A stretch of 64,000 nucleotides of DNA, taken from Dulcicalothrix desertica PCC 7102. GTDB taxonomy: Bacteria > Cyanobacteriota > Cyanobacteriia > Cyanobacteriales > Nostocaceae. Made by a program: the position numbers and the translations under genes. Position 1 is the first letter of the stretch. Each line of letters begins with the position of its first letter. The stretch is from assembly GCF_003991905.1 (NCBI RefSeq), contig NZ_RSCL01000012.1, positions 1 through 64,000 on the forward strand. The letters are read 5' to 3'. The notes beneath the pieces are model-generated. The model did no database searches. It saw only the letters and a list, made by a program, of their open reading frames with translations, and had not been told where the DNA came from. This document shows positions 650 through 63,972 of this stretch, one piece after another.

Positions 650-913
650 AAAAGATTCCTTTATTCACAAGGCTTTCAGACTACTAAAACACGTTTACAC
701 CATTTTTACACCATTTATTTTGGCGCCAAATAAAAGGCTATCAAAAGCTCTATTTCCTGCCAGCAAAAGATTGTGTCTTAGCCACGCCAACCCTTATTAT
801 TGAACTCAAAATTCCTAGCCAAAGTTCAAGTAAATATAAATACCATTGTATTTTTTGTACTGACAGTATCAAACTATAAATTTTGCCTCGTCTTTCAAAT
901 TGCACCATAGTTC
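650..913. other. No gene seen
   Basis: About 260 bases with only short, compositionally poor frames on both strands. It holds one TGGCGCCA palindrome and twice the phrase TTTACACCATTT. No promoter, RNA or remnant was recognised. Confidence 0.4.
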
Positions 914-1036
914 CTCTTTCTATCCCAATTAGTCGGCGCCTCAAAGGTCAGGATAGATTCATGTAATCTAACTCCACAAAACTTTTATTTTCTCAAGCAC
1001 TAATAATTTTATAATCTTTGTTAATCTCTAGAAAAA
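914..1036. repeat. Dispersed repeat, copy A (partner at 43813-43935)
   Basis: About 120 bases starting 'CTATCCCAATTAGTNGGCGCC' and ending 'TAATCTNTAGA' match 43813-43935 with scattered differences, by eye near 75-80% identity. In both places the repeat leads into a broken gene, so it may be an old promoter region copied with a decayed gene. Confidence 0.6.
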
Positions 1037-1426
1037 CCCCAAAATTTCCCGTTGGGTATTTGAGAGAATATCAACCCAAGGTCAAGATTAAAAAAACTGC
1101 GATGGGAGAACCCAACGAATTTAAAGTTTTTCAGGATGGTGGCGCCTTTATTGCTAAACTTCGAGGTGATTTGGGACAAGCTTCGTTACTTACAAAGCAA
1201 GCTTTCGACTTAGAGCAAGAAGCTGCCGCATTAATTGCTCATCAATTAGATGCAGAACCAACTCGCTCGGTTTTACATCTCCTGCGCCGCCACCCTGGCA
1301 ATAGATTGTGGAGAATTAAAAGCCGCAGAGTGTTTAATTACAACAGCTTTATGTGGAAACCCCCCTAAAGAAATTGCCGAGGAATTGAAAGAGTTATTTA
1401 TCAAAATTAGGTTGGCACCAAATTGA
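1018..1426 (+). pseudogene. Frameshifted hypothetical gene
   Basis: A frame from a TTG at 1018 carries protein-like sequence (EFKVFQDGGAFIAKLRGDLG ... AALIAHQLDAEPTRSVLHLL). It then loses sense after a GC-rich stretch near 1288-1300. From there another frame continues plausibly as LAIDCGELKAAECLITTAL ... EIAEELKELFIKIRLAPN and stops at 1424-1426. The two halves read as one ~135-residue protein broken by a one-base indel. No family was recognised. The weak TTG start and the frame break make decay more likely than a working gene. Confidence 0.5.
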
Positions 1427-1461
1427 AATTTGTGTGCCAATGGCGCACAAAATCTGCCTTT

Positions 1462-1512
1462 ATTCGGTTTTCCTGAATAAATAGTAGTGAAAACCGAATA
1501 ACTGATGTATTG
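1462..1512. repeat. Hairpin repeat, copy 1, downstream of the SWIM gene
   Basis: Perfect 11-base arms ATTCGGTTTTC and GAAAACCGAAT (1462-1472, 1489-1499) enclose a 16-base loop. About 48 bases including this hairpin recur at 3571-3620 on the other side of the SWIM gene. It could terminate the leftward SWIM transcript, but no T tract follows, so a mobile repeat is equally possible. Confidence 0.6.
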
Positions 1513-1552
1513 CGCGTTTATTTAACTATGGCGCCATCAAGTTAAAATTTCT

Positions 1553-3325
1553 TTATGGTTTATTTAGTTCATTAAATAAGTCCATCAATTTACGTTTACG
1601 CCCGTGAGTGTATTCTAGAGAAGCACGATAATTAGACCACTCAGCTTGTTGTCCCAGTTGTAAATAACCAGCTTTAACTTTCTTCAACCATTTAACTGCG
1701 TCCTCATAGCGGTCTGCTTTGCCCCGATTCATAATTTCTTCTGCCCGTATGACAGCATTATTAATTACCCAGTCAGGACGATGGGGAAGTGCTGCCTGCA
1801 TAACTCGGTGTACTGATTCTGAACGATAGTAAGTGTCTTTTTTTACTGTTTTAATCGCATCATCTATTAAACCTTCATGGAGAAAAATATCAACTTTTGC
1901 TTCTTTAGCTAACCAATTTTCAGATTCTCGAAGTATTTCGAGTAAATCTTGTTTTACTTCTTCCCAAATCTCTCCTGCCAAGTTTTCTACTTTTGTGTAA
2001 TCTCGAAACGATGGTCTTTCTTCAAATGCAATAATACCAGCGTTTAATGCAATTGATGTATGATTTAACTCTTGTGCTAAATCGCTCGTCCAAGCAGCAA
2101 AGTCATAAATATTTTTCCCAGGTAGGTTTAATCCTGCTTGAGCTATTTCTAATGTTTCAGATAAATATCCTTCTTCTCGCAATATTTTGGCAAGGGCAAA
2201 GGCTGTTTCTACTGTGTCCATATGGGTTTGAGCAGCAGACATAACTTCATCAATTCTTCCCAAAGCCGCTAGCTGCGTTAAGTATTGCTGAGTCATTCCT
2301 TCAGATAATGCTAAGTTTAAATATTCTGTATATCGATTTTGACGTTCGAGATATTCTAAACGTATTAAAGCTAAATCGTTCGCAAAATCTGGTCGAGTAT
2401 CTGCCCAAAGTTGTGTAGAAGTATCACCTTTCATTACTTGTTGCAGTGGCTCGTAATTCCAGCCTTGACGTAATGCTTCTAAACTCATGGAAAAATCTAT
2501 ATCAATTTCATCCTGCCATGATTCGAGCATTATTTGCAAATCAGCCACTTCTGATACAGGTATCTCTGCACACAAAATTGCTTCTGTCCACGCGCGATTA
2601 AGAGGTTCTGCAATCGAATAGCAATCACCACCATAATTGGTTAACTCATCCCACTCCTGAGCGTAAGTTGATGTAATGGCTTCGAGGATAGTAATAGCAT
2701 TATTTCCATCGCCATTTTCTGCAAATTCCCGTGCTTCTTCGACTACCGCTAATAATTCTTCGGTAAAAGGGTCATCTTCACTGCCGTACTCTAATTCTCG
2801 CAATCCATCCCGTAAAATCCTTTTTACCTGACTACGAATAGGTGCCACATCAATTTTAGTACGACGTTTGGGTGATGGAGATTTTGTAGGGTCAGGTGGT
2901 AAATTGATTGAGCTAACAAATAGCTCCACATCATCTATAGCTTCTGGGTTTTTCTCTACTAATTTTTGAACCAAACTTTGAGTTTGTAAGTGGTCGAGAT
3001 TATTTAACAACTGTTGTAATGTAGGACGTTCTTCAATTTCTGCTTCTGAACGTACACAGGTTAATAATGTTGCAACGATATGTTTGCACCAACCATCGTA
3101 ATCATAAGCACAGCTACAGCAAACAGAAGTAATTCCACCTGCGTCAAAATTTATACTGACCTGATATGGTTTAATTTCGCTACCTTCGACTGCCGCTTGA
3201 ATTTGGTTGCCTCGTTTTTTCAGGTCAATAACTGCTCGGTGTCTAGAGTATTCTTCACCACGGCTATATGATGAAGCGTTGGAGTTATGGCGGATTATTG
3301 CTTCTGATATAGGTAGAATCGACAT
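1553..3325 (-). CDS. SWIM zinc-finger protein
   Basis: This 590-residue protein has an N-terminal SWIM motif, CxCx7CxH (C70, C72, C80, H82), a zinc-binding fold that contacts DNA or protein. It is followed by a long helical region with TPR-like repeats (for example 'ALAKILREEGYLSETLEIA'). This domain order is common in bacterial SWIM proteins of unknown role, so it is probably a cytoplasmic nucleic-acid or protein scaffold; no enzyme motif was found. The ATG at 3325 starts the conserved-looking MSILPISEAIIRHNS. The gene stands alone and is flanked by direct copies of a 48-base repeat, which suggests it was moved as a unit. Confidence 0.8.
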   Translation of the reverse strand: MSILPISEAIIRHNSNASSYSRGEEYSRHRAVIDLKKRGNQIQAAVEGSEIKPYQVSINFDAGGITSVCCSCAYDYDGWCKHIVATLLTCVRSEAEIEERPTLQQLLNNLDHLQTQSLVQKLVEKNPEAIDDVELFVSSINLPPDPTKSPSPKRRTKIDVAPIRSQVKRILRDGLRELEYGSEDDPFTEELLAVVEEAREFAENGDGNNAITILEAITSTYAQEWDELTNYGGDCYSIAEPLNRAWTEAILCAEIPVSEVADLQIMLESWQDEIDIDFSMSLEALRQGWNYEPLQQVMKGDTSTQLWADTRPDFANDLALIRLEYLERQNRYTEYLNLALSEGMTQQYLTQLAALGRIDEVMSAAQTHMDTVETAFALAKILREEGYLSETLEIAQAGLNLPGKNIYDFAAWTSDLAQELNHTSIALNAGIIAFEERPSFRDYTKVENLAGEIWEEVKQDLLEILRESENWLAKEAKVDIFLHEGLIDDAIKTVKKDTYYRSESVHRVMQAALPHRPDWVINNAVIRAEEIMNRGKADRYEDAVKWLKKVKAGYLQLGQQAEWSNYRASLEYTHGRKRKLMDLFNELNKP

Positions 3326-3899
3326 AGCACCCTAAAATTTTATTTTTTAGTCTATGCTTAAATGAGGCTTCTTTTGCGTGATTACTAAAAATCTTTACTT
3401 TTAATGTCCACGCAAGTCTAGTTGATTAGTACTATTGATTTTACCTAAAGGTTATTAAAGACAGCGCGCGTAACTACTCTAAAAAATGATAAATAGCTAA
3501 TATAATATCCTTGTATAGTACAATTTAACTAACAAGCGAGAGAAATGTGTTGATTTGAAATAAATACATAATTCGGTTACCTTGAATAAAAAGTAGTGAA
3601 AACAGAACTACTAAGATGTCTTATCATATTTCATTTTTGTATTTCAAATGTGCGTTCCTTCAATTGTGAGAGCAATTCTTTATAATATGTTTAGTTCTTT
3701 AAAGAAAGTTAAATAATTTACTCATGGTAGCATTATTTACTGTGAAATAAGTAAAATGACGCAAGAACATTTTTCATTCATCGGTGCCTGCTAATAAAAT
3801 CAATCAACTTCAGGGAAACGTGTCATTAGTTTTTCTTGATAAATTTGTCTCGAAAATAATATATAACTACTACACTACACACTTACTGAGAAAGAATAT
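3326..3899. other. Intergenic region between divergent genes, with repeat copy 2
   Basis: About 570 AT-rich bases between the SWIM gene and the 136-residue gene. They hold the second copy of the 48-base repeat at 3571-3620 (ATTCGGTTAC... with a decayed right arm), which may supply promoters for both genes. No convincing open frame or RNA gene was seen. Confidence 0.45.
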
Positions 3900-4310
3900 A
3901 TGGGCACTGAACAGACAACTTTAGCAGCAAGCGCAGCTGAAATTACCAAATCAATGTTGCCAGATTTAGAGCAACTATCAAAGTGCGCCGAAGAACCAGT
4001 AGCTGTTGTGTTCGCTGACAGCTTACTGCGAAAAATGCGTTCTCTACATGATGCACATATGTATGACCCTTACACAGAAGCTGTAATGGCACTACATGAT
4101 GCACTTGCTCATCAAAATCGTTGGATTAATTACACTAGTAATCAGTATGAAGGTGCTTACAAGCTATTTTCAGCACTAGTTAATAAAAATACAATCACTA
4201 ATGCGGATGTTGAAAACACAATTATATCTTTAGAAAATATAGGTTTTAATACATTACCTTTTGGTACTATACTTGACGATGATAGTTACGAAGATTCGGA
4301 GGAGGTGTAA
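3900..4310 (+). CDS. Hypothetical protein upstream of the PIN gene (antitoxin-position)
   Basis: 136 residues, acidic at the C terminus (DDDSYEDSEEV), mostly helical, with no recognised domain. It ends 6 bases before the PIN-domain gene, so the two should be co-transcribed. That position and the acidic tail fit a partner or antitoxin of the PIN protein, which is inference from context only. The ATG at 3900 follows a weak GAGAAAG ribosome site. The last ~30 codons and the start of the next gene are duplicated as a remnant at 5251-5409, so the pair was once partly tandemly duplicated. Confidence 0.65.
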   Translation: MGTEQTTLAASAAEITKSMLPDLEQLSKCAEEPVAVVFADSLLRKMRSLHDAHMYDPYTEAVMALHDALAHQNRWINYTSNQYEGAYKLFSALVNKNTITNADVENTIISLENIGFNTLPFGTILDDDSYEDSEEV

Positions 4311-4316
4311 CAAAAT

Positions 4317-5114
4317 ATGTCAGAGGCGCCGATTCAAGGATATTTTCTAGATACCTCTGTAATGCGTTCACTGTTACTTTCTACACAAGTATATCAGCAG
4401 TACTTAGAGTTTCAGCTTACTGACAAAAAAATTTACATATCCAACTATGTACAGATGGAAATCATACGTAGTTATCTTGTAAATATCATATCTTTTTATT
4501 TTGTCTTGAATCTAGATGCCATCAATACCATAGGAGATGCCTTTGCATTGTGGAGTAATAAATTTAAGGGAAGTGAGTTAAAAGCTATTTTACAAGTGAT
4601 TCCGCAATTGTTCAATGACCGTCAATTAAATTTTTCTAATCCGAAAGATAAAGAGAAAGCTTTATCACTTCTAACAATTTATATAAGGCGTTTTAATTTA
4701 CTCATTAGAACAAAATTTAATAATACGAATGATTCAACTTCGTGTGCGCGTGCCCTTGTACCGCTAAATGTTGATTTTAATAATCCGGAACCAGGCTTCA
4801 AGAGGTTTCTTTTAGAGTTTCGGGATACAAAAACTTGTCGAAGTAAGTGTCAAATTGACCAGTTTATTTTAGTACAGTATCGTAACGACATAGAGCAATT
4901 GGGTGCCATTGCTTTTAGTTGTGATGACAAAGTTATTGCTAGTGGTAGTACTGATAATACAATCCAACTTTGGGATGTCGCAACAGGAGAATGCTTTAAA
5001 ACTCTATGTGATCGTCCTTATGAAAACTTGAATATTACTGGCATTAAAGGCTTAACAGATGCCGAAATTGCCACCCTTAAAGTGTTAGGTGCAGTGGAAG
5101 ATGGGGGAATATAA
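4317..5114 (+). CDS. PIN-like protein fused to a WD40 C-terminal tail
   Basis: 265 residues. The start, GYFLDTSVMRSLLL, carries the Asp of a PIN-type RNase fold, and the first ~195 residues look like a PIN protein of the VapC superfamily type. From about residue 198 the sequence changes to a WD40 blade, IAFSCDDKVIASGSTDNTIQ followed by LWDVATGECFKTL. It then has the tail NITGIKGLTDAEIATLKVLG that normally ends cyanobacterial NB-ARC/WD40 proteins. A single blade cannot form a propeller, so this looks like a recombination chimera in which an unrelated gene end supplied a new C terminus. Whether the nuclease still works is unknown. Confidence 0.65.
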   Translation: MSEAPIQGYFLDTSVMRSLLLSTQVYQQYLEFQLTDKKIYISNYVQMEIIRSYLVNIISFYFVLNLDAINTIGDAFALWSNKFKGSELKAILQVIPQLFNDRQLNFSNPKDKEKALSLLTIYIRRFNLLIRTKFNNTNDSTSCARALVPLNVDFNNPEPGFKRFLLEFRDTKTCRSKCQIDQFILVQYRNDIEQLGAIAFSCDDKVIASGSTDNTIQLWDVATGECFKTLCDRPYENLNITGIKGLTDAEIATLKVLGAVEDGGI

Positions 5115-5250
5115 TATTAAAAATAAATGGTAGCGTGCGTAAACGCTTGAGAAATAATATATACTTATACTAACATAGGGTCTTACTAGCACTCAAGAAC
5201 TAAAAGAGTTAGGGAATGAAGAAACTTGGAATTTTTCTAGTTTGCTTCTA

Positions 5251-5409
5251 GCGTAGATATTGAAAACGCAATTATATCTCTAGAGAATATAGGTTTTAAT
5301 ACATTACCTTTTGGTACTATACTTAAGGGTGATAGTAATGAACATTTGGAAGAGGTGTAACAAAATATGTCAGAGGCACCGATTAAAGGATACTTTTTAG
5401 ACACCTCGG
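5251..5409 (+). pseudogene. Remnant copy of the 136-residue gene end and PIN gene start
   Basis: This stretch repeats 4202-4360: the end of the upstream gene (ENIGFNTLPFGTIL...), the spacer AGAGGTGTAACAAAATATG and about 20 codons of the PIN gene (MSEAPIKGYFLDTS). It then breaks off abruptly. It shows a partial tandem duplication whose second copy was deleted. A third scrap of the same PIN start lies at 43940-43988. Confidence 0.75.
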
Positions 5410-5491
5410 ATCATGGGGTCACTATTGAGAATTTTATATTTGTGCCGCAAGGATAAGTGCAGAGTTCCGTGAAGTCAAATATTATATTTTT

Positions 5492-8221
5492 ATGGATTGC
5501 CTGATAAGTATAATTAGAAAAACTAATGGATTGGTGGCTCTGGTTAGTCGAGTTTTACGCCATCTCGATCCAGTAAATGACGCTCGCGCAACGCTGGGTA
5601 TAGATTCAAATTTGGGCTTATATGAGATTATTGAATCTCCCTTGGAATTATTAACTTCATCTTTGTTTCCTCAAAAAGATGCATTAATTGCTTCGTGGAA
5701 TTATCTTAGCTGTGTTGATGAGTTAAACGCAGACACCCTTTTTCATATTTTGGTAGTTGTAATTAACACAATATGGGAACCTTTAGAATCGGAATTTACG
5801 TTGCCTAATTTATCACCAGAAAATATTACCAAGCAAGTAATCAAACCAACAGCAGCAAACCCTAGAGCCTATAAGGGAACTAAATATAAACCACCAAAAC
5901 CCAAGGTTATCTCCCAATTGGATTTGAGATTATATTTGTGTGAGCGCAAGTACCAAAACCAGCTACTCTTAAGATTAGGTAAATATTGGATGGATGCTTT
6001 GGTGCAGCTTGAGAAAGCTGGTTATAACGTTAGTTCTCTGTCATCAAAAATTTCATCTATAACGACGGGAACAAGAAATTTTGACCCATACTATGGATTT
6101 AACCACAATCTTTACATTCCCGGAGAGTATCCGGCTTTACCAATTATTTTTCAACGATATTTATGGTTTTCTTTAAAAGGCTTACTTTGGGCAGTTGTAA
6201 CAGATTATTTATCAGTTTATTGGCAATTTGAATTAGATGAAAACTTTGAGCATAAACAGCAATTTTTATTCGCATTTAGTCGATTGCTAAGTCTTCAGAA
6301 TAATCACTATACATGGGAATGGTGTCAAATTATTGTCCAGCAACCTGAATCTCTTCGTCTGATTTTTACTACTGTTGTTATTGAAACTCAAATTTATTCT
6401 CTCAATCTCACGGATTTATTAATTTCTGGAATAGAGCGATTTCATCAAATTGTTGGTGAAACTGATTATGCCTACAAGCTTTATTGTTTCTTTTTAGCCG
6501 TAAAAAATGGAATTTCTATCGATTATATTTTAGCAGGTTTTAAGTTGTCTGCCTTGTACCCATACGATTATGAACAATTTGTATATATTGATGGAGATTG
6601 CTATTTTTCCGATATAGTTGTTGATAAATTAATCCAAATTGGCAATTATATAGGTTTTTCTAACTGGGAATTCTACAGTATTTGGGGAAAATTTGGAGAG
6701 TTAGATGGTTTAATTAATATTATTCTGGATATTAATTGGCAGGACTACGAAAAAGATGTTGCCGCAAAATATTTAAATTTTTATTTATATATAATTGATT
6801 TTTGTGACAAAACCGAGGCAGAGATTTGCGAACAAAAAAATAAATGGAAATTTATTCAACGACAAATCAATTTAATTGAAACTTTATTACGAGGAACGGC
6901 GCCAGAGTATCAAACGAAAGTTATTGAAGATTTGAGACAATATTATTGGTATTGGGATAAAATTGAGGAACTAAATTTATATATTCCCTTCGCACACTTA
7001 ATTATTAAACGCTTGGCTCAATCACCTTTTGCAACAGATACTAATGGTGACGTAGCTTGGATAATTGCCCATATTGTTAATTATTTAAAGCCTCAAGAAT
7101 GTCAAACCTTTATCAATGCACCCGATGCAAGCTTTTTAAGCTTAGAACAAGCTTGTCGTTTAGAAAATGATGCTCGGTTAATCCCTAAAGGAATTGCAGC
7201 CATTAGTAAACAGTTGAGTACTTTTACTATCCAATGTTTTATTGATTTTCCCAATAAATTATTCAAGCTAGGGAAATTATTGGGAAGTTTTAGCAAACCA
7301 GTTGCTTTGAGTGTGGTAAAAATATTCAGTCAGCATCCCATCATGACTAAAAATATTGCTCTCTTACCACTACAAGAAGCTTGTGATTTTATTGACAGTC
7401 AATGTAATGACCAATTTAGCAATCCCATCCCCCGTAAAATCCGCGATTATCTTCGGGGGAAAATTTCCTTGAAAGAAGGGCAAATAAATCGAGCATGGGG
7501 ATTAATCAAGAAAAATATCCAACTGACCCAACTGGATATCTTAGAAAATACTATTCTCCAGGCATTAAAACGGGAATTTGATGTCAATCCACAACAAGAG
7601 GATATCAAACATGCTCTGGCTATGCTAGGTTCAATTGATGATAATTTTCGTCCTTTTCGTAAATTCTTAAAGGCTTACTGGGAAAATAACGACTCAAATT
7701 ATCTACTCAACCACCCTCTCAGTCAATCTTGGTTGAAAGAACATCCCGCAATCGCAACTAAAATAGATATTTGGATGCAGGGAATCGCTTGCAGTTACTT
7801 AGTTGAAGAATTCGGCACCATTGAAATTAAATTAGAGACACAACCACTAGAAGTCTTAAAAATGGGTACTTTTGTGGGTAGTTGTTTGGGACTCGGTGGA
7901 ATATGTTCCTATTCCGCAGTTGCTGTTCTTCTCAATATCAATAAACAGGTACTCTACGCTCGAAATCAAAAAGGTACAATTATTGCACGTCAACTTATTG
8001 CTATTTCGGAAGCGCAAGAATTAGTTTGTTTTTCTATTTATCCCCATAATATTCATACCCATATCAAAAGTATATTTTATGAATATAATATTATGTTTGC
8101 AGATGCCCTTGGTCTAACACTTTATCAAGATTCTCCAGATAAAAATAATACTTACGAAATCGTAAATATTATTTCTCAATCCTGGTGGGATGATGATGCC
8201 TGGGATTTTAACTTATCGTAA
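5492..8221 (+). CDS. Large hypothetical protein (909 residues)
   Basis: No known family was recognised with confidence. The first ~740 residues are rich in Tyr, Trp, Phe, Leu and Ile and look like an alpha-helical scaffold. It is unlikely to be a membrane protein, because the hydrophobic stretches are broken by charges. The last ~130 residues form a distinct domain containing LKMGTFVGSCLGLGG, VLLNINKQVLYARNQKGTII and ARQLIAISEAQEL. That pattern (Cys in a Gly-rich turn, then beta strands) may be a small catalytic or ligand-binding domain. The ATG at 5492 follows a stop in frame. It is the only long intact gene of this stretch; function is open. Confidence 0.7.
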   Translation: MDCLISIIRKTNGLVALVSRVLRHLDPVNDARATLGIDSNLGLYEIIESPLELLTSSLFPQKDALIASWNYLSCVDELNADTLFHILVVVINTIWEPLESEFTLPNLSPENITKQVIKPTAANPRAYKGTKYKPPKPKVISQLDLRLYLCERKYQNQLLLRLGKYWMDALVQLEKAGYNVSSLSSKISSITTGTRNFDPYYGFNHNLYIPGEYPALPIIFQRYLWFSLKGLLWAVVTDYLSVYWQFELDENFEHKQQFLFAFSRLLSLQNNHYTWEWCQIIVQQPESLRLIFTTVVIETQIYSLNLTDLLISGIERFHQIVGETDYAYKLYCFFLAVKNGISIDYILAGFKLSALYPYDYEQFVYIDGDCYFSDIVVDKLIQIGNYIGFSNWEFYSIWGKFGELDGLINIILDINWQDYEKDVAAKYLNFYLYIIDFCDKTEAEICEQKNKWKFIQRQINLIETLLRGTAPEYQTKVIEDLRQYYWYWDKIEELNLYIPFAHLIIKRLAQSPFATDTNGDVAWIIAHIVNYLKPQECQTFINAPDASFLSLEQACRLENDARLIPKGIAAISKQLSTFTIQCFIDFPNKLFKLGKLLGSFSKPVALSVVKIFSQHPIMTKNIALLPLQEACDFIDSQCNDQFSNPIPRKIRDYLRGKISLKEGQINRAWGLIKKNIQLTQLDILENTILQALKREFDVNPQQEDIKHALAMLGSIDDNFRPFRKFLKAYWENNDSNYLLNHPLSQSWLKEHPAIATKIDIWMQGIACSYLVEEFGTIEIKLETQPLEVLKMGTFVGSCLGLGGICSYSAVAVLLNINKQVLYARNQKGTIIARQLIAISEAQELVCFSIYPHNIHTHIKSIFYEYNIMFADALGLTLYQDSPDKNNTYEIVNIISQSWWDDDAWDFNLS

Positions 8222-8236
8222 ACTACTACCAATACC

Positions 8237-8416
8237 TCATATTCTTAAAGTTTTTTGCATCTTAACACAAGCCATTTCTTGCCCAGATGCAAGCCTCGGT
8301 GTTCCATATTCAATGACTTCAAAACCCTGCTTGCTGTAAAACGCTTCAGCATTAATTAAAGCATCTGCCTTTAAGTACAATAATCCCAGTAAGGCTGCTT
8401 CTTGTTCCTTCTTCAG
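8237..8416 (-). pseudogene. GNAT acetyltransferase C-terminal remnant
   Basis: Sixty codons on the minus strand read AALLGLLYLKADALINAEAF and then YSKQGFEVIEYGTPRLASGQ, the last helix and strand of a GNAT N-acetyltransferase. An in-frame TAG lies just upstream (8417-8419) and the acetyl-CoA-binding part is missing, so only the tail is left. Confidence 0.6.
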
Positions 8417-8495
8417 CTAAAATTTTGGCACCAGTTATGGGATGTAGAAACTTTAGAACAAATGACTGAGACGTTCTGCTTAAATTCTCAAAGCA

Positions 8496-55556: not shown

Positions 55557-55572
55557 TCTGCTATTATTTAAT

Positions 55573-55806: not shown

Positions 55807-55808
55807 CA

Positions 55809-56228: not shown

Positions 56229-56270
56229 ACTATCAACTTTTCAATCATGGCGCCTCTGTGTGAGTTAATA

Positions 56271-57155
56271 TCATTTTTTAATTAGTTCAAGGAACCGATG
56301 TAATATATTTGACGAGTTATGACGGCGCCAAACAGCAACCAATTCAACAGTCTCGGTTTTTCCTTGAATATTTCTATAAATAACCCCTTTGCGTTGAAGA
56401 TTTTGGGCATTTGCGGGAAGTAATGCAACTCCAACGCCACCTGCTACTAACCCTAAAATTGTTGTCATCAGCATGGCTTCTTGAGTAACTTTTGGGATAA
56501 ACCCAGCTTGGCTACAAAGGTAATACATCTTATCGGCTAAACTTGGAACAAGCTGGCGAATTGGCAGAACAAATTCTTCTTCTGCTAGCGCTTTTAGTGG
56601 TATTTCTGATAAAACTGCTAGTGGGTGAGTTTCAGGAAGAACAAGAATTAATGGTTCAACTAAAATTGTTGTAAAACTCAAGTCACTATAATCAACAATT
56701 TCGGGTGGTAGATGAAAAAAGCCAATATCGAGTAAATTAGAGCGCAACGCTTGTATTTGTAAATAAGTTGCAAGTTCACGCCAAACTAATTGAACTTCTC
56801 TCATGTGTGTACGTTGTAAGCGTAGGATGTCGGGTAACACACTATTGGCAATCGAGCTTGTAAACCCAACAGTCAAGCGACCTAGTTTACCTTGATGAAC
56901 CCGTTGTGCTAATTTTACGGCTTGTTCAGCTTGAGCTATGGCTAAACGGGCTTCTTCTAAAAATGTTTGCCCTGCGGATGTTAGTTCAAGAGGGCGCCTT
57001 CTACGGTCAACAAACATTTGTACGCCTAACTCTTCTTCTAAATCTTGAATCTGTTTGCTTAAAGGAGGTTGAGCCATATGCAAGCGTGTAGCGGCGCGGC
57101 TAAAGTTTAATTCTTCAGCAACAGCAATAAAATAACGCAGATGCCTTAGTTCCAT
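56271..57155 (-). CDS. LysR-type regulator
   Basis: 294 residues from the ATG at 57155 (a TTG at 57170 is the alternative). N-terminal winged helix MELRHLRYFIAVAEELNFSR, AATRLHMAQPPLSKQIQDLE; then a CbnR/BenM-like effector domain (LGRLTVGFTSSIANSVLPDI ... VALLPANAQ). Divergent from the aspartoacylase gene across 160 bases with a clear palindrome, so it probably regulates that gene and itself. The inducer is unknown; an N-acetyl amino acid is possible. Confidence 0.9.
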   Translation of the reverse strand: MELRHLRYFIAVAEELNFSRAATRLHMAQPPLSKQIQDLEEELGVQMFVDRRRRPLELTSAGQTFLEEARLAIAQAEQAVKLAQRVHQGKLGRLTVGFTSSIANSVLPDILRLQRTHMREVQLVWRELATYLQIQALRSNLLDIGFFHLPPEIVDYSDLSFTTILVEPLILVLPETHPLAVLSEIPLKALAEEEFVLPIRQLVPSLADKMYYLCSQAGFIPKVTQEAMLMTTILGLVAGGVGVALLPANAQNLQRKGVIYRNIQGKTETVELVAVWRRHNSSNILHRFLELIKK

Positions 57156-57168
57156 GTCAAGGTTAGTC

Positions 57169-57191
57169 AACTATACCTTTTAAGTATAGTT
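57169..57191. promoter_or_regulatory. Palindromic operator between lysR and the aspartoacylase gene
   Basis: AACTATAC-N7-GTATAGTT, perfect 8-base arms, 14 bases upstream of the lysR start. Includes the T-N11-A spacing favoured by LysR proteins, so it is a likely autoregulatory site. Confidence 0.65.
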
Positions 57192-57317
57192 GGTCGTTGA
57201 AATAAGTATTTTACATATAGTCATAGCTTATTTATATTTAAACTAACAAAGCAAAGTATTTACTTTCTATCCAGCTAAATAAACAATGAATATTTTGTAA
57301 AGGGAGAAATATCCTCT

Positions 57318-58214
57318 ATGACCGTAAACCCAATTCAGCAGGTTGCAATCGTTGGTGGTACGCATGGAAACGAATTTACAGGCGCCTATTTGGTGAAAAA
57401 GTTTGAACAATTCCCAAATTTAATTAAACGGTCGAGCTTTGAAACCTTGACTCTGTTAGCCAATCCCAAAGCATTTGCACTCGGACGACGATATATAGAT
57501 TGTGATTTGAATCGTTGTTTCAATAAAGAGAAGTTGAGTAATCCTAATCCAACTGCCTTAGAAGAAAATCTTGCTCAAGCTATTGAGAAAATATTGAGAC
57601 CAGAAGGAAACTCCAACGTTGATTTCATCATTGACTTACATAGCACAACTGCCAACATGGAGTTAACCATTATCCCAGTTGACAAAAGTCCGTTTAATAT
57701 GAGGCTAGCTGCGTATCTATGTTCTATAAATCCACTTGTACATGTTTATTCTTGGCAACAGACTGGACAAGAAAGTCCTTTTCTCAGGTCAATCTGTCAA
57801 CTCGGCTGCACAATTGAGGTTGGTTCAATTGCTCAAGGTGTTTTGAATGCAACGTTATTTGAGCAAACAGAAAAACTTATTTACACGATTCTTGATTATT
57901 TGGATGCTTATAACCAAGGTCAAACCAACGAAATTTCTTCAACATTGACACTCTATCAATGCGTGGAGATGATTGACTATCCAAAAAATCAGACGGGAGA
58001 GTTGCAAGCTATGATTCATCCGCAGCTTCAATTTAGAGATTATCAACCCCTCAATCATGGCGCCCCGATGTTTTTAACTTTTGATGGACAAACTATTACC
58101 TACTCAGGGAAAGCAACTGTTTATCCTGTTTTCATCAATGAAGCAGCTTACTACGAAAAAGGAATTGCAATGTGTTTAACCGAAAAACAGCTTCACGGTC
58201 TCGGCGCCGCTTAA
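57318..58214 (+). CDS. Aspartoacylase (AspA/AstE family)
   Basis: 298 residues. The zinc motif [16 protein letters not shown] (H16, E19) and the later ligand in [11 protein letters not shown], plus DCDLNRCF, match aspartoacylase. That enzyme hydrolyses N-acetyl-L-aspartate to acetate and aspartate. [14 protein letters not shown] and the C-terminal beta domain are also typical. The ATG at 57318 follows AAGGGAGAAAT. Length is as expected (~300). It is followed by a fragment of a membrane transporter, perhaps once its uptake system. Substrate choice between N-acetylaspartate and related compounds cannot be settled. Confidence 0.9.
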
Positions 58215-58256
58215 TTCAACAGCTAACTAACTAAAAATTCATACTAGTACTAATAT

Positions 58257-58412
58257 ATGCTTTCGACCTTTGCACCGTTGATGATTATTATGATTGCCAT
58301 AATCTTTATGTTCAAACGTATTGATGTGCGATTAAGTTTAGGATTATGTACAGCAGGTTTATTTTTTATTGCAGGCAAGTTGCCTCAGTTGTTCATCACT
58401 AAAATTACTTAA
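58257..58412 (+). pseudogene. N-terminal fragment of a membrane transporter
   Basis: 51 codons, MLSTFAPLMIIMIAIIFMFK then RIDVRLSLGLCTAGLFFIAG, two membrane segments with the look of a DASS/DUF401-type permease start. It stops after KLPQLFITKIT. The full gene would be several hundred residues. Probably truncated; a genuine 51-residue membrane protein cannot be excluded. Confidence 0.5.
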
Positions 58413-58439
58413 GATACTGTATAGCAGCAGCTAACATCA

Positions 58440-58530
58440 TTGGTGCCTCATATCCTGCGAATTTTCTCAGATGCAAAGTATGTATTTCAGATAATCGGCA
58501 CCGTGTTTTAAATGCAGGTGCCTGTCGATT
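58440..58530. pseudogene. Scrap of a PIN gene joined to the hairpin repeat
   Basis: Bases ~58455-58492 resemble the middle of the PIN gene at ~54860-54905 (GATGCNAAGTATGTATTTC, encoding SDAKYVF). They run directly into the hairpin AATCGGCACC...GGTGCCTGTCGATT, the partner of 55398-55440. So a second ImmA/PIN-type locus seems to have been largely deleted here. The remaining gap to 58675 shows no gene. Confidence 0.5.
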
Positions 58531-58675
58531 AACATGAATCATGTAACTAATATTACACTTATAAGTATTTTTATTAGTCCATTTAAATCCACTTATCTAC
58601 TCTACTTTGTAACTGGTACAATTCTTAAGCATGGCGATAGTGTTACTTAACCAGTTAAAAAAGTGATTTTTATTT

Positions 58676-59263
58676 ATGGATAAACTTAGGCATTGTGTAG
58701 ACCAATTTGGGAAGATAGGCGAAGTGTATTTTGATAAGGCAGTTTTTTTAGGAACAATGTGCTTGTTCCCGAATTTCTGTCAAGAACCAAGTACATACGA
58801 AGTTATTCGTAATTTTGTAGATAACCTGAATAGCCAATATCAATCTTGGGATAGTGGACTAGGTGATTTAAAAGTATTTGCAAAACGTAGGGGATATCGT
58901 AGTTTTGATAAAGGCTATATTCGCACCCGTGATGTTGTCAATTTGTGCGAGTTTGGTAAATCTCTTTATCCAGAGGTAGGAAATATACTAGATACAGATT
59001 ATTGGGATGAATTAGCTATTTATCGTCGAGCAGAATGCCTTAGTCAAGATGCATTTGAAAAATGGATAAATTCTTATTTGAGGAATAAGTTAAATTTTGA
59101 CGCTTTCTTTGATACAATCATACAAAGATTATTTCCTAATTCTAATCATCAAATTACTTTTTACTCTCTTGTTGATGATGGTAACTCAAATACAGCCTTT
59201 GCACCATATATTTTAATCGGAGATAGTTGTATTTTAACTATTGCTCAACGATGGGTACTATAA
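58676..59263 (+). CDS. Hypothetical protein
   Basis: 195 residues, no domain or motif recognised; a mixed helical/beta protein with no signal or membrane segment. It has WDSGLGDLKVFAKRRGYRSF and DTDYWDELAIYRRAECLSQD. No neighbour in operon range. A GTGATTTTTATTTATGG precedes the start with no clear ribosome site. Confidence 0.6.
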   Translation: MDKLRHCVDQFGKIGEVYFDKAVFLGTMCLFPNFCQEPSTYEVIRNFVDNLNSQYQSWDSGLGDLKVFAKRRGYRSFDKGYIRTRDVVNLCEFGKSLYPEVGNILDTDYWDELAIYRRAECLSQDAFEKWINSYLRNKLNFDAFFDTIIQRLFPNSNHQITFYSLVDDGNSNTAFAPYILIGDSCILTIAQRWVL

Positions 59264-59328
59264 AGTCAATGTAAGTAGTTATGGCTACTTACATCAAAAT
59301 ATTTGACTGGATACTCTGCCTAATGAGA

Positions 59329-59778
59329 CTAAATAGGGTCGTAATAGGAATATACTACATTTTGTTTACTTATATGTTCATAAAGAATATTAAGTCCTCG
59401 ACTCTCAAAAACGCAAGATTTACCATTTACTTTCTTTAAACCAATAGCCATCTCACCAAAAAGAGTGGGCTTTTTCTTTTGAAATGCTTCTTCGAGTAGA
59501 AGAAGAGCTTGATTTTGTGTTTTTTCAGAAACAAATCTACTCCATGTTTTTCGCCAAAATGCTTCAGGACGATATTGAGCGCGTACCAAAATCTCTTTAC
59601 ACTGTTTTCTAGGATAGTTATGTTTTTGCCTTGTGTGGCGTAAAAAGAATTCTGCTGATGTAGGAGATGTTTTCTTGAACTTAACAACTTGATACTCCCA
59701 ACTTGACCCTCCTGCACTCACTGCATCAGAAGTTAAAAGCCAAAGTAAGCATATTAGCGTTGAAATAAACTTTTTCAT
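59329..59778 (-). CDS. Exported hypothetical protein
   Basis: 149 residues with a signal peptide (MKKFISTLICLLWLLTSDAV, cut after SAG). The mature part is basic and Lys-rich with SPTSAEFFLRHTRQKHNYPR. A pair of Cys (KQC, KSC) may form a disulfide. Unknown function; no clear partner. Confidence 0.65.
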   Translation of the reverse strand: MKKFISTLICLLWLLTSDAVSAGGSSWEYQVVKFKKTSPTSAEFFLRHTRQKHNYPRKQCKEILVRAQYRPEAFWRKTWSRFVSEKTQNQALLLLEEAFQKKKPTLFGEMAIGLKKVNGKSCVFESRGLNILYEHISKQNVVYSYYDPI

Positions 59779-59822
59779 AAAAATTTAGACGTGCCTAATC
59801 AAAAATAGAACTACACTTTTGT

Positions 59823-60353
59823 TTAGTAACCAATACTTTGATACCAAATACTTCCATCAGACATAATGGTGTTACTAAAAATAGCCTTACTAATGTTATA
59901 AAAGCCTTCAATATCTAGCAAATCGGCATTAGTAAAGTTAGCACCATCAAAAAAAGAGTGGTTTACAAAGGCGCCCCTGAGAATAGCGTTGCTGAAATTA
60001 GAGCTATTAAAATCGCATTGGTACATTTCGGCTTTGCTCAAGTTTGCATTAATAAAGGAAGTATTGTTGAAGTTGGCTTGACCACCTCTAGCTCCACTTA
60101 AATTAGCACCGTCAAGGATAGCTTCATTCATTTCAGTCCCTTCCATGTATGCTCCTTTGAGATTAGCCTTGCTGAGATTGGTGTTGTCTAGATTAGTACC
60201 CTCTAAAATAGCTCCTTCTAAATTAACTCCGCTCAAGTTGGCTCCGCTTAAATCCATATAAGTAAAATCTAAACCAACTTCAATGAAGTTAAGGGTTCCA
60301 GCAAAGCTTCTTTCTCCTTTCTCGTACCTTTCCAAAAATTCTTCAACTTTCAT
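59823..60353 (-). CDS. Pentapeptide-repeat protein
   Basis: 176 residues. A short leader (MKVEEFLERYEKGERSFAGT) is followed by about 22 A(D/N)LXX units (DLSGANLSGVNLEGAILEGT), which fold as a right-handed quadrilateral beta helix. Cyanobacteria have many; functions are mostly unknown, and a few mimic DNA to inhibit gyrase. The leader and size suit a soluble cytoplasmic protein. Confidence 0.9.
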   Translation of the reverse strand: MKVEEFLERYEKGERSFAGTLNFIEVGLDFTYMDLSGANLSGVNLEGAILEGTNLDNTNLSKANLKGAYMEGTEMNEAILDGANLSGARGGQANFNNTSFINANLSKAEMYQCDFNSSNFSNAILRGAFVNHSFFDGANFTNADLLDIEGFYNISKAIFSNTIMSDGSIWYQSIGY

Positions 60354-60473
60354 AATTTACCTGTCACATCAACACATACAAAGATAAGCTACAAAATCTC
60401 TGGTCTATCCTACAAAGGCTAATTCCATTAATTGGGTCTAGTTGAGTTCTGCTACCATTATTCTACGCAGAGA

Positions 60474-60652
60474 TAAATACGGATATTACCATTGCTTGCT
60501 CCATATAAAAACACGGCGCCTTTGGGCAAGTATACCAAGACGCACAGTAGGGTAATGGTAGTTAAATCATCAAGTTATTTGCTGCACAACAGGCGCCTTA
60601 CCCATACCAATTCACTCTTCAATGATTACGTCAATAGTGATATTAATTTAAA
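60474..60652. repeat. Diverged ~180-base repeat, copy R2 (partner 37780-37956)
   Basis: Copy R2 lies upstream of the parM-like gene and includes two GGCGCC sites, ATTACCATTGCTTGCTCCAT and CAAGTTATTTGCTGCACAAC. See the partner. The rest of 60354-60723 holds no gene. Confidence 0.6.
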
Positions 60653-60661
60653 TCACTATTG
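60632..60661. promoter_or_regulatory. Inverted repeat upstream of the parM-like gene
   Basis: CAATAGTGAT (60632-60641) and ATCACTATTG (60652-60661), perfect 10-base arms across an AT spacer, about 60 bases before the parM-like start. A likely operator or centromere-type site for the segregation operon. Confidence 0.65.
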
Positions 60662-60723
60662 ATATATTTCTTTTCGGTTCCGACTTGATAACTTGAGGTA
60701 GATGCCGAAAATACAAATAGCTT

Positions 60724-61860
60724 ATGGGCAGACTCAATAAAAATGCTTTTCCCGAAATTACATTAACACTCGATTTTGGTGGAAGCGGAACTAAAGGGAT
60801 TGTACAGGTAACAGGCGCCAAGCCAACTGCATTTTGGATGGAAGCTGCTGTAATTGAAGCCAGTCGCACTTCTTTGACTTTCCAAACTCGTAATTTGGGT
60901 AATGCTTATCCAGAAAACACAGCTTGGGTAGGAGTGGGTGAAGATTATCGAGCAGTTGGGTACTTAGCTAAAAGCGTATATAGTGCAACGCAAGGACTCA
61001 GACCGCGAAAATATGAACTGGCACTATATAAGACGCTGGCTGCTGTGTGGATGATAAAGCAAAAATTTAAGTTATCTGATACGCTGCAAATTTCACTGGC
61101 TTTATTACTGCCACCAGGAGAGTTTGAAGATTCAGCGTTACTCAAACCAATGCTCAAGGATGCTTTAGCCTATTTTGATACGCCGACTGGAACTTTGAAT
61201 TGCAAGTTAGTTGGTTACGAATGCTTTCCCGAAGGTGGTGGTATTTATGCGATGTACTGCAAAAATATCGGCGAAGCAATCAGACGTAAAGTTGTTGCAA
61301 TAGTTATGTTAGGCTATCGCAATGCCTCGGTACTAATATCTCGGCGCGGAATTTTAAACCGGGGTAAAAGCGTGAACTTGGGCATGGCGAAGATGGTTGA
61401 TTTAGTTATGGAGCGTACTTCCGGACTTGAAGAAGAACGGTTAATCGAAGCAATTATTGCTGCTGGTAGGGAACCAAAGCTAGGTCACTTTAAATATATT
61501 TGTGGTAACAACGTTCGAGAGCAGGAAATTGAAAAAACTGTTGCTGCGGTTTATTCTTCTAGGGATGAGTATGCGACTGCCCTTACTGCCTGGTTGAAAG
61601 AGGTTTTACCATCCAAAAACGAATTAGACGAGGTAATAATCTGTGGGGGTACTGCCGATTACCTGCGCCAAGAACTAGATGCAGTGTTTCCAGCAACATC
61701 AGTAATGTGGCATGGTGGTGTGAAAGTTCCAGCAAGCCTTGACGAACAATGGTTGGGAAATCGTCTTGCTGACGTGTGGGCGTTGTCTGTATATCACGGT
61801 TTAAAAGTCAAGACAGGTGTTAGAGGAGTGGGAGATAAGGGGAGCGAGGAACAGAAATAA
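60724..61860 (+). CDS. ParM/StbA-like actin
   Basis: 378 residues, an actin-type ATPase: phosphate-binding loop LTLDFGGSGTKGIVQV at the start, CKNIGEAIRRKVVAIVMLGY, and late VIICGGTADYLRQEL as the adenosine motif. ParM filaments push plasmid copies apart. The start is the ATG at 60724, 63 bases after the inverted repeat. It shares one base with the next gene's start (TAATG), so they are coupled. It heads an operon of at least four genes that continues past the window end. Confidence 0.8.
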   Translation: MGRLNKNAFPEITLTLDFGGSGTKGIVQVTGAKPTAFWMEAAVIEASRTSLTFQTRNLGNAYPENTAWVGVGEDYRAVGYLAKSVYSATQGLRPRKYELALYKTLAAVWMIKQKFKLSDTLQISLALLLPPGEFEDSALLKPMLKDALAYFDTPTGTLNCKLVGYECFPEGGGIYAMYCKNIGEAIRRKVVAIVMLGYRNASVLISRRGILNRGKSVNLGMAKMVDLVMERTSGLEEERLIEAIIAAGREPKLGHFKYICGNNVREQEIEKTVAAVYSSRDEYATALTAWLKEVLPSKNELDEVIICGGTADYLRQELDAVFPATSVMWHGGVKVPASLDEQWLGNRLADVWALSVYHGLKVKTGVRGVGDKGSEEQK

Positions 61861-62288
61861 TGAGTAAAAAGAAAGATTTTACATGGCGCCATCAACCGCC
61901 GCTCCATTCAGATAAAGCAAAGATGTTCGCTTACATACAAAATCGAGATTTGCACCCAAGCCAAGATACGACTGCGATGATAAATGCTGCTTTGACTGCG
62001 TACTATATGCCTATAGCGCTTCTATGTGAAGGTAATCACTCAAAGGAATATTTGGAATTGCTACTTCTAGATTCTGCAAACGCCTTTGCCAGTCAACTTA
62101 GTTATTTATGTGCTGCACTTAATGTTGATAGCTGGCGCATTGGTAGAGTTTTATGTAAGGTATTTCCCATTTCCAGAGAAGGCGCCCAAGTTTTTGATGA
62201 AAATAGTACAGCCCAAGAGGAGTTCAATAATTTTGAGCTTACTGAGTGGAATTTGGCAGGTATTACGACAGATAGCGAGACGTTTTAA
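61860..62288 (+). CDS. ParR-position hypothetical protein
   Basis: 142 residues, start TAATG overlap with the parM stop. Basic start (MSKKKDFTWRHQPPLHSDKA) then helices (QDTTAMINAALTAYYMPIAL). No recognisable ribbon-helix-helix, but a small basic gene right after parM is normally the DNA-binding adaptor ParR. Inferred from position. Confidence 0.6.
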   Translation: MSKKKDFTWRHQPPLHSDKAKMFAYIQNRDLHPSQDTTAMINAALTAYYMPIALLCEGNHSKEYLELLLLDSANAFASQLSYLCAALNVDSWRIGRVLCKVFPISREGAQVFDENSTAQEEFNNFELTEWNLAGITTDSETF

Positions 62289-62305
62289 TTGGAGACAAAT
62301 TAAAT

Positions 62306-63046
62306 ATGGCGAGAATTCATTTAATCGATGGTGAGAAAGGAGGAGTAGGGAAGTCACTGTTCGCGCGCGTCATGGTGCAGTACGCTATCGACAAAAAATT
62401 AGAACATTCTTTGGTAGATGCTGATATGACGAACCAGGATGTGAAGCGATTTTACCCCACTGCTGTTGATGCTGAGTTTAGCGAAGCCTTAAATAAAGGA
62501 AACAAAGCCGACATAATTTTTGAATTAGCCCGGAACAAACCAGTTATCGTCAACCTTCCTGCCAACGTATTCCCCCTTGTTCAAAACTGGATAAAAAAGG
62601 GACGGTTATTAGAAGTCGCCGATAAATACGGTGTAGATGTTTGCAAGTGGTTTGTTTGTGACGGGGGTTTTGAATCTATCGACTTGTTTTACCAATCGAT
62701 GAATTTATACAAGGACACAATGCTGCATGTTTTCGTCAGAAACCACGGGAAGACCGATGATTGGAGCTTTTTAGACGGTGATGCAGCCTATAAGGGATTG
62801 AAAAATAAGTACAAAAATACACTGCAAATAATAGACTTTCCCTTACTTTACCCAGGAGACAGATACTTTATCGACTCAAAGAAGTTTCGGTTCGATGCAC
62901 CCGACATTGAGAAAACCATGCCGATAATGTCACAGCAAAGACTATCTACTTTTTTGGAAGACTCCGAGCGCGCGATTGAAAATACCCATTTGTGGGCAAA
63001 AGACAAACAGCCCAAGAAAAAAGATGCAATCAAACAGCATTCCTAA
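62306..63046 (+). CDS. ParA-like ATPase (deviant Walker)
   Basis: 246 residues with deviant P loop GEKGGVGKSLFARVM (KGGVGKS, residues 11-17), a conserved ADMTNQDV and a C-terminal helical part. This is the MinD/ParA superfamily; on plasmids it usually partitions DNA or positions the mobilisation machinery. A Walker B Asp lies in VVNLPAN..CDGGFES only loosely, so the enzyme class is uncertain. It lies in one operon with the actin; ParA and ParM together in a single operon are unusual. Confidence 0.75.
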   Translation: MARIHLIDGEKGGVGKSLFARVMVQYAIDKKLEHSLVDADMTNQDVKRFYPTAVDAEFSEALNKGNKADIIFELARNKPVIVNLPANVFPLVQNWIKKGRLLEVADKYGVDVCKWFVCDGGFESIDLFYQSMNLYKDTMLHVFVRNHGKTDDWSFLDGDAAYKGLKNKYKNTLQIIDFPLLYPGDRYFIDSKKFRFDAPDIEKTMPIMSQQRLSTFLEDSERAIENTHLWAKDKQPKKKDAIKQHS

Positions 63047-63060
63047 CTAGGAGGCGCCTG

Positions 63061-63972
63061 ATGAATTACGATTTTCATACTTTGTATTCTAGTGATACGG
63101 CTTTTAACTGCGATGTTGTTTCCGAAAGTAAACATGAATACATGGGGCGATTATATATCCTTGCCGCAGAAGAGCCAAAACTATTAAATCTTGGGATTGA
63201 GAAAGAATGGTTTCTCAGCCATTCTCAAGGACAGTTCTTAGTTTGCGGTCATATAAATACTGATGGGCAATGGTCTTTATCGTCTTATAAAAGTTTAGAA
63301 CCGAGTTTACGGTACACAACTCAAAGTGAGATATTTGACCGTGTATTCAGTACTGACTATGTAAAAGAAGTTCTACAATTGCGTAGCGAACTAGGTATGG
63401 AATTACAACAGCCAATTTTACTTAACAACGGCGCCAATGACTCAAATGATGAATCTTCGGATGCTACAGTAACAAAAGTTTACACCAATTTCTCAAACAA
63501 CGAGAATATAAGCATTGACAAATTGGATATTTTGAGAGACTTACTACTGCGTTTGTCTCCTCTTGAATTGAAAGAATTTGAAGAATCTGGCTTACATACA
63601 CAAGAGTCAGCAGTAACTATTGTTACCTTGCCCCAGGAATCTGTGTTAATAGAAGAAATGCAAAAAGTTGAGTTATCAGAAATTCAAGATGCCTTAATTG
63701 AGAAAGTATTAGAAGATTACCAGCAACACAACACAAGCGAGTTTATATTAACTGATGAAGCAACAGTGACGATTCACGTTGAAGAAGATTACTTTGTATT
63801 GCTCTCAACAGAAGATGGACATACTATTCTCAGTGCCACAATGGAAGGGGAAGTCCTCGACAAATTAAAGGAAGTTGATGCACGACAATTTATGTTCATG
63901 TTGCAACAACAAGAGGCGCCTGTTGAGTTAAACACTCAAAACCCCGCTGTTGACCAGCTTACAATGGATTAA
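63061..63972 (+). CDS. Hypothetical protein, segregation operon
   Basis: 303 residues from the ATG at 63061, with AGGAGG exactly upstream; an earlier ATG in the same frame (62992) would overlap the preceding gene. Acidic, mostly helical, no domain recognised; SRGQFLVCGHINTDGQWSLS-like start then long acidic helices (LEDYQQHNTSEFILTDEATV). Two bases before the next gene, so it is part of the operon. Could be a chaperone-like or partner protein. Confidence 0.65.
   Translation: MNYDFHTLYSSDTAFNCDVVSESKHEYMGRLYILAAEEPKLLNLGIEKEWFLSHSQGQFLVCGHINTDGQWSLSSYKSLEPSLRYTTQSEIFDRVFSTDYVKEVLQLRSELGMELQQPILLNNGANDSNDESSDATVTKVYTNFSNNENISIDKLDILRDLLLRLSPLELKEFEESGLHTQESAVTIVTLPQESVLIEEMQKVELSEIQDALIEKVLEDYQQHNTSEFILTDEATVTIHVEEDYFVLLSTEDGHTILSATMEGEVLDKLKEVDARQFMFMLQQQEAPVELNTQNPAVDQLTMD

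Follow-up and report, generated by a model that had tools for sequence, protein, structure and literature searches.

The best known highly iterated palindrome (HIP) of cyanobacteria is HIP1 (GCGATCGC), a GC-rich palindrome found roughly every kb, inside genes as well as between them, and accompanied by an orphan 5-methylcytosine (m5C) methyltransferase (DmtA/DmtC). Its function has been an open question since the 1990s. Here we follow up an earlier note on a 64,000-base stretch of Dulcicalothrix desertica PCC 7102 (contig NZ_RSCL01000012.1, positions 1 to 64,000; hereafter the window), according to which another palindrome, GGCGCC, takes the place of HIP1. The two systems share the general features given above but differ in both the word and the methyltransferase, a DmtC-like match being found in 0/7 genomes of the window's genus, Calothrix.

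The closest described case is that of Calothrix PCC 7103 and Calothrix D253, in which GGCGCC was presented as an alternate HIP, the evidence for D253 being 19 kb of known sequence (Elhai 2015, PMC4390886). There, the word is reported alongside a GATC restriction gene and a pair of GRCGYC methyltransferases, the CGATCG methyltransferase being broken. Alternate HIPs are said there to arise sporadically while HIP1 alone persists, and to be an epiphenomenon; the second GRCGYC methyltransferase copy may have been critical, and a methyl-GC-directed, methylation-biased mismatch repair is proposed to restore sites (PMC4390886). Compared with this account, our case involves the same word in the same genus at a similar density, with HIP1 lost and GATC strongly depleted, and a similar set of enzymes: a GATC restriction enzyme, a putative GRCGYC methyltransferase, and no match to the CGATCG methyltransferase. 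It differs in that it concerns another genome, that the swap is found in 7/7 genomes of the genus instead of sporadically, and that a single copy of the methyltransferase suffices.

The central claim, that GGCGCC replaces HIP1 in Calothrix, has therefore been known since 2015; what is new here is the genus-wide swap, the common orphan methyltransferase (together with a common DpnII-type system and the missing DmtC-like enzyme), the site-by-site retention and the loss spectrum. Selection on HIP1 itself was reportedly analysed later by Xu, Lawrence and Durand in 2018. A short word iterated throughout the genome is also a feature of the DNA uptake sequences of Pasteurellaceae and Neisseriaceae, which are not known to be perfect GC palindromes with an associated methyltransferase.

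GGCGCC in the window and its genome

By exact count, GGCGCC occurs 95 times in the 64,000 bases of the window (38.1% GC; first site at 434, last at 63,915-63,920), where base composition predicts 3.1 and 200 dinucleotide shuffles gave a mean of 4.5 and a maximum of 10. The earlier estimate of over 90 sites, with about 4 expected, was thus accurate. A maximum-order Markov model, which already holds the word's own parts, predicts 54.8. Also as noted before, the classic word GCGATCGC does not occur at all in the window (exact count over 64,000 bases). The density of GGCGCC is alike in coding and non-coding DNA, as had been claimed: 74 sites lie within open reading frames (ORFs), at 1.50 per kb, and the other 21 between them, at 1.44 per kb. 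Spacing is near random (mean 675, sd 734), and the commonest in-frame reading is Gly-Ala (43/74 ORF sites). The suggestion that the word is often in frame with start codons does not hold. ATGGCGCC is present 14 times counting both strands, and GGCGCC falls within the first 12 bases of just one of 44 ORFs (position 20,176), this set comprising 48 ORFs of at least 120 amino acids minus 4 nested antisense ones, with starts assigned mechanically. The sites are the following.

434..63920, strand not applicable (.): 95 palindromic GGCGCC sites, starting at 434, 722, 935, 1141, 1530, 4325, 6898, 9949, 10639, 11081, 11605, 12023, 14321, 14518, 15009, 15125, 15179, 15203, 16266, 16545, 16827, 17241, 17431, 17781, 19093, 20178, 20532, 20599, 21298, 21627, 21703, 22481, 23191, 23825, 24454, 24726, 24867, 25141, 25744, 25947, 26389, 27092, 27347, 27839, 28535, 28892, 30081, 30525, 30564, 30730, 30784, 31504, 31810, 32323, 32436, 32554, 32878, 33330, 35885, 36236, 36725, 37897, 38210, 38818, 42962, 43829, 43957, 44860, 47560, 47939, 48780, 49995, 50015, 50705, 51146, 52352, 53382, 53860, 55401, 55422, 56249, 56324, 56993, 57381, 58059, 58203, 59970, 60515, 60592, 60814, 61885, 62181, 63053, 63430 and 63915
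20176..20183, plus strand: the lone GGCGCC-bearing ORF start (ATGGCGCC) among the 44 ORF starts examined

In the whole genome to which the window belongs (G000; 11.42 Mb, 109 contigs) there are 19,393 GGCGCC, or 1.70 per kb. This density (1,698 per Mb) lies within the range of about 1,000-2,000 per Mb of a GC-rich palindrome that marks the alternate HIP class, and HIP1 is nearly absent, as described for that class (Elhai 2015), with 58 copies of GCGATCGC versus 62 for the reversed control word. Two outcomes named in the earlier note as fatal to its claim, a genome-wide count near expectation and an enrichment of HIP1 elsewhere in the genome, were thus not observed. In a 224-kb sample of G000, GGCGCC ranked first among the 4,096 hexamers by observed/expected ratio (373 versus 18.2 under a first-order Markov model), while GATC (50 occurrences) and GGCC (43) stood at 0.06 and 0.14 of the base-composition expectation, respectively. 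The control word CCGCGG, which we take to be the Eco29kI site, was found once in the 11.4 Mb. It is a poor control in G000 because Eco29kI-type systems there should deplete it, and the GGCGCC excess was consequently judged by shuffles and Markov expectations instead. At L041 3146-4983 and L042 3885-5744 (G000:C62, G000:C4), this genome has two methyltransferases with adjoining Eco29kI-like GIY-YIG ORFs; of these ORFs, the one on C62 was assigned to the restriction family by Pfam.

The exchange across the genus and its enzymes

The family set comprised 217 genomes, seven of the genus Calothrix and 210 others. The seven were G000, G060 (Calothrix sp. PCC 7103), G061 (HK-06), G062 (NIES-4105), G063 (metagenome-assembled genome (MAG) C42_A2020_038), G064 (a Calothrix MAG) and G065 (PCC 7716); they span about 19% nucleotide divergence, and G000 and PCC 7103 are 95% identical over 35 sampled genes. 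GGCGCC is abundant in all seven, with 7,475-20,380 copies each (1,150-1,711 per Mb when genome sizes are rounded), whereas the 210 other genomes have at most 111 per Mb (G084, where the control word is higher still). Conversely, GCGATCGC occurs 31-163 times per genome in the genus, or 0.6-4.0 times the control word (highest in G063 and PCC 7103), and is far commoner in nearly all of the 210 others, thousands of copies being typical of the family; the fewest outside the genus were found in G182 (30), G194 (535) and G191 (574). The replacement of HIP1 by GGCGCC claimed for the window thus extends to its whole genome and to all seven genomes of the genus. Since the swap is present in 7/7 genus genomes and 0/210 others, it persists in a clade, and a genus-wide pattern over about 19% divergence contradicts the view, in the account of Elhai (2015) cited above, that alternate HIPs are sporadic and do not persist.

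G063, the genus genome most divergent from G000, has the lowest GGCGCC density of the seven (1,150 per Mb) and retains the most HIP1 (22.6 per Mb). CGATCG is undepleted in it (14 versus 14.1 expected in 98 kb), and it may resemble a transitional state. In the same family, G194 (10.7 Mb) has little HIP1 (50 per Mb), a DmtC-like gene, and strong depletion of GATC and GGCC in 32 kb, and may be in the course of losing HIP1. Sampling of the 7/7 genus genomes showed a strong depletion of GGCC (0.10-0.18 of expectation), and the word is almost gone from a G001 sample (1 versus 143 expected); a TdeIII-like restriction gene is present in G000:C77. In search of independent GGCGCC expansions, 388 genomes of the class were drawn and counted, and DNA was sampled from 10 genomes besides G194, most high-count genomes lying outside this sample. 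The highest counts elsewhere in the class were taken as those of GC-rich genomes because the control word was also high. The best lead is G435 (same order, 3.8 Mb), a possible independent weak case with 9,489 GGCGCC, a 3.6-fold excess and no excess of HIP1 in a 61-kb sample of 55% GC. G561 has 3,074 GGCGCC versus 165 for the control word, with 2 versus 2.6 expected in just 14 kb of small contigs.

When the m5C methyltransferases collected by PF00145 were clustered, two clusters were found in 7/7 genus genomes. One of them, methyltransferase B, was rejected as the enzyme specific to the swap: it clusters with genes from at least 3 of 10 outgroup genomes and is present in other genera, in a comparison that took in part of the outgroup genes. 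The other contains A1 (G000:C4:441733-442671, minus strand), a HindV-type m5C methyltransferase present in 7/7 and found in 55/210 genomes elsewhere, 5 of the 55 being fragments. Outside the genus we found 19 A-homologous loci and examined the neighbours at seven of them. At five of these the homologue adjoins an RE_HindVP restriction gene (PF09519); of the remaining two, one has a neighbour matching no family (L125) and the other a D12 methyltransferase downstream (L118). A plasmid homologue with 55% identity to A1, one among the 30 matches listed, is annotated 'modification methylase HindV'. HindV recognises GRCGYC, which includes GGCGCC. Among nine methyltransferases scanned with NCBIfam, the m5C superfamily alone was above cut-off. 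The specificity of A1, which we infer to be GRCGYC, is suggested by its relatives' adjacency to RE_HindVP and by the single HindV annotation. These same features place A1 in the family of HindV-type GRCGYC systems, from which the genus differs in its lack of a HindVP restriction gene match: PF09519 was found in 0/7 genus genomes, in a search that also matched 0/14 control genomes, while by hmmscan the same model strongly matches the relatives' genes (up to 2e-154). A1 therefore looks like an orphan. The earlier expectation that the word should mark a methyltransferase or a selection agrees with a candidate enzyme of suitable type in 7/7 genomes and with the site conservation described below.

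The A1 locus is the same in 6/7 genomes, adjoining a RuBisCO-like gene (by Pfam in G000, by eye in the other five) and an S-layer-like gene (by eye); in HK-06, pieces of the copy at this locus lie at contig ends and an intact copy, 83% identical, is found elsewhere. A second A-type copy, about 60% identical and partly on plasmids, occurs in 5/7 genomes (in HK-06 as a fragment only) and was not found in G000 or G063. Because these two carry a single copy, the second is dispensable for keeping GGCGCC. The 55 relatives with an A homologue have a median of 1.07 GGCGCC per Mb versus 5.0 in those without (p 0.0009), a depletion we regard as non-specific because the control word CCGCGG differs as much (4.7 versus 9.6, p 0.0006).

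The DmtC-like methyltransferase found in 0/7 genus genomes has matches in 202/210 other family genomes at the same threshold (E up to 1e-60), a few of them carrying stops; its near-universality in the relatives is what suggests that this enzyme is DmtC. DpnII (PF04556), on the other hand, is present in 7/7 genus genomes, always 308 amino acids long and free of stops, and in 12/210 genomes outside the genus. Upstream of it lies a similar ORF of 344-347 amino acids in 7/7 (by eye), which in G000, the sole genome scanned with Pfam, is a MethyltransfD12 (D12 adenine methyltransferase). Together with GATC at 0.06-0.29 of the base-composition expectation in samples of all seven genomes, this is the arrangement of a DpnII-type GATC system.

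Retention and loss of individual sites

The alignments comprised 38,043 codon columns from 112 orthologues in three syntenic blocks, the third of which covers G000, G060 and G062 only. Retention was computed conditional on unchanged amino acids, the expectation being codon retention elsewhere. Of the GGCGCC sites of G000, 144/175 were kept in G062 (13% divergence) versus 61.8 expected, an observed/expected ratio (O/E) of 2.33, while 141 control words had a mean O/E of 1.10 and a maximum of 1.61. In G063 (19% divergence), 69/99 were kept versus 19.7 expected (O/E 3.51), against a mean of 1.10 and a maximum of 1.68 for 29 control words. The excess is small in the comparisons with G060, G064 and G065 (O/E 1.17-1.22, with controls up to 1.30). 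Control words sharing GGCG, GCGC or CGCC had been dropped because they overlap GGCGCC sites; when they were kept (20 and 17 words), the highest control O/E was 2.00 and 2.85, versus 2.59 and 4.24 for GGCGCC. The control hexamers are overlapping ones, and the branch order was taken from identities, not from a tree. This conservation of sites shows that GGCGCC is actively maintained.

With G062 as outgroup, 160 ancestral GGCGCC sites and 73 loss events were reconstructed, 57 of them single-base and 16 of several bases. The central CpG accounts for 41 of the 57 single-base losses (C3T 25, G4A 16). In the Gly-Ala frame (frame 0), which makes base 3 as well as base 6 fourfold degenerate, C3T occurred at 23/84 sites and C6T at 2/84 (p 4e-6), the latter being far under the rate for other third-position C without a following G (111/688, p 2e-4). 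Assuming equal protection of the two bases, mutation at base 3 must be several times faster than at base 6, as for a 5-methylcytosine; the inner cytosine (GG-C-GCC) is thus probably 5-methylated, as judged from this mutational pattern.

The fate of losses was followed by a branch test on sites present in both G062 and G063, with words of four or more G/C as controls. Of these sites 42 were unchanged in the ingroup, 26 lost in part and 2 lost throughout, and the ratio of 26 part-clade to 2 clade-wide losses compares with 831 to 827 in the controls (p 3e-6). Under a stricter filter (unchanged amino acids, at least 4 ingroup genomes), 35 sites were unchanged, 16 lost in part and 0 clade-wide, versus 535 to 502 in the controls, the probability of 0/16 clade-wide losses at the lower bootstrap bound being 0.0002; the counts in this test are small. 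On single recent tips, pooled, GGCGCC was lost at least as fast as controls (12/183 versus 46/1,319), the tip losses being highest in PCC 7103 (6/41) with 1 to 3 in each of the other four genomes. On the long branches far fewer changes were found: 3/45 versus 115/423 GC-rich controls for G062 (stricter filter 0/35), and 17/59 versus 316/624 for G063 (stricter filter 5/40). Losses thus seem to be short-lived. Apparent gains at the tips (GGTGCC to GGCGCC 4/5, with GGTGCD to GGCGCD 0/27; GGCACC to GGCGCC 2/4) were set aside, since they can also have arisen from the site being lost in parallel in G062 and in one genome of the ingroup.

A proposed ancestral replacement with a restoring force, and the alternatives

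Starting from what was observed directly (the swap in 7/7 genomes, the gene contents, the common loci, the long-term retention and the loss spectrum), we propose an explanation in which four elements are inferred: what the enzyme recognises, which base it methylates, in what order the events took place and what kind of force restores the sites. The ancestor of the genus would have acquired a DpnII-type GATC restriction system and lost the CGATCG-type methyltransferase DmtC, while the methyltransferase of a HindV-type (GRCGYC) system would have been kept after the loss of its restriction partner. GATC words, and GCGATCGC with them, would then have been purged, and GGCGCC would have risen to become the abundant methylated GC palindrome, with about one site per 580-870 bases. 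The orphan enzyme would 5-methylate the inner C, sites decaying mainly by C to T at this position, and a restoring force, either methylation-biased mismatch repair as proposed by Elhai or selection on sites, would remove or reverse the losses over longer times. The observations are compatible with methyl-GC-directed mismatch repair as well as with purifying selection. That GGCGCC is the alternate HIP of the genus Calothrix through an ancestral replacement and a restoring force is the explanation we favour, with moderate confidence.

Several observations weigh against it. HIP1 remnants stand above the control word in G063 (147 versus 37) and in PCC 7103 (163 versus 58). The C3T changes (23/84) are not significantly above those at other NNC|G sites (86/448, p 0.10), and the argument for a hot spot at C3 rests on C6, because C6 is far below its background. 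Recent decay in PCC 7103 (6/41) and FI2-JRJ7 (3/37) is an alternative to transient loss, and clear gains of GGCGCC are few, since apparent gains can be parallel losses. The enzymes do not predict the swap elsewhere either: outside the genus, HIP1 persists at 329-969 per Mb in the 12 DpnII carriers and in the 8 genomes without a DmtC-like match. Three of these genomes, G083, G096 and G097, combine both states and have no GGCGCC enrichment, and G096 has in addition a HindV-type (A) homologue and yet only 3 GGCGCC. These genes are insufficient for the swap; there, the change either happened recently or lacks some further ingredient.

The strongest competitor holds that GGCGCC has a function of its own, in replication, recombination, nucleoid organisation or as a signal for DNA uptake, and that purifying selection keeps it, methylation being incidental. 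Retention far beyond control words at 13% and 19% divergence and a uniform density over coding and non-coding DNA agree with it, and recent losses rarely become ingroup-wide (26 to 2 versus 831 to 827), as would be the case for slightly deleterious changes. But the word differs wholly between genera of one family, which is hard to reconcile with a protein-binding signal, an argument already made by Elhai (PMC4390886), and the losses cluster at the central CpG instead of being spread over all positions. We regard an independent function as a serious possibility, although not the likelier course of events.

A much weaker case can be made for a passive relic, in which GGCGCC rose once by some mutational process and has been drifting since. 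The few recent gains and the excess of recent losses in PCC 7103 and FI2-JRJ7 are what one would expect of it; retention at 2.3 and 3.5 times expectation at the two divergences refutes it as the sole explanation, and the scarcity of long-branch losses (3/45 versus 115/423 in G062, 17/59 versus 316/624 in G063) also speaks against it, so that we consider it very improbable. Marginally less probable still is very-short-patch repair, with a Vsr-like endonuclease turning T:G in GGTGCC into C:G and thereby creating and keeping GGCGCC. The C3T/G4A spectrum and a methylated inner C would suit it as substrate, but Vsr (PF03852) was found in 0/7 genus genomes and 1/217 of the family, in a search that did match 5/14 control genomes, E. 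coli included, and the genus shows no depletion of GGTGCC, which stands at 1.25-2.07 of expectation. The Vsr family is thereby mostly refuted, an unrelated T:G-specific nicking enzyme being possible. Lastly, ordinary bias in codons or GC, or the avoidance of other words because of restriction, for which the prevalence of Gly-Ala among in-frame readings (43/74) might speak, is refuted by the equal density outside ORFs, by the 373 occurrences against 18.2 expected and by the 0-1 GGCGCC per 80 kb in samples of three other genera of similar GC, and has practically no chance of being the cause.

As for the other contents of the window, positions 21331-37069 hold a mostly minus-strand gene run encoding a TrbI-like protein (24546-26144, slightly below the Pfam cut-off) and an FtsK/SpoIIIE-like ATPase (29134-31938). 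This run resembles a conjugation module, and GGCGCC is at least as dense in it as in its surroundings. In 39484-49429, a 1,375-amino-acid WD40 protein adjoins a 1,424-amino-acid AAA_35-TPR-CHAT protein. Neither a scan for transfer RNAs nor one with Rfam found anything in the window.

A clade with an exchanged word, whose relatives keep HIP1, amounts to a natural experiment on whether it is this particular sequence or a methylated GC palindrome that matters. The retention of single sites over 19% divergence and the swap in 7/7 genomes contradict the non-persistence of alternate HIPs published in 2015. We put forward tentatively, as an idea that falls somewhat short of being probable, that HIP may be a transferable function and not a particular sequence: the genus would have exchanged HIP1 for another methylated GC palindrome and kept it site by site through a force that reverses losses by deamination. 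On this reading, the alternate HIP would have stably taken over the function of HIP1 instead of being an epiphenomenon as thought in 2015, and the common denominator would be methylated GC near every base of the genome, from which mismatch repair might, for instance, take its strand signal.

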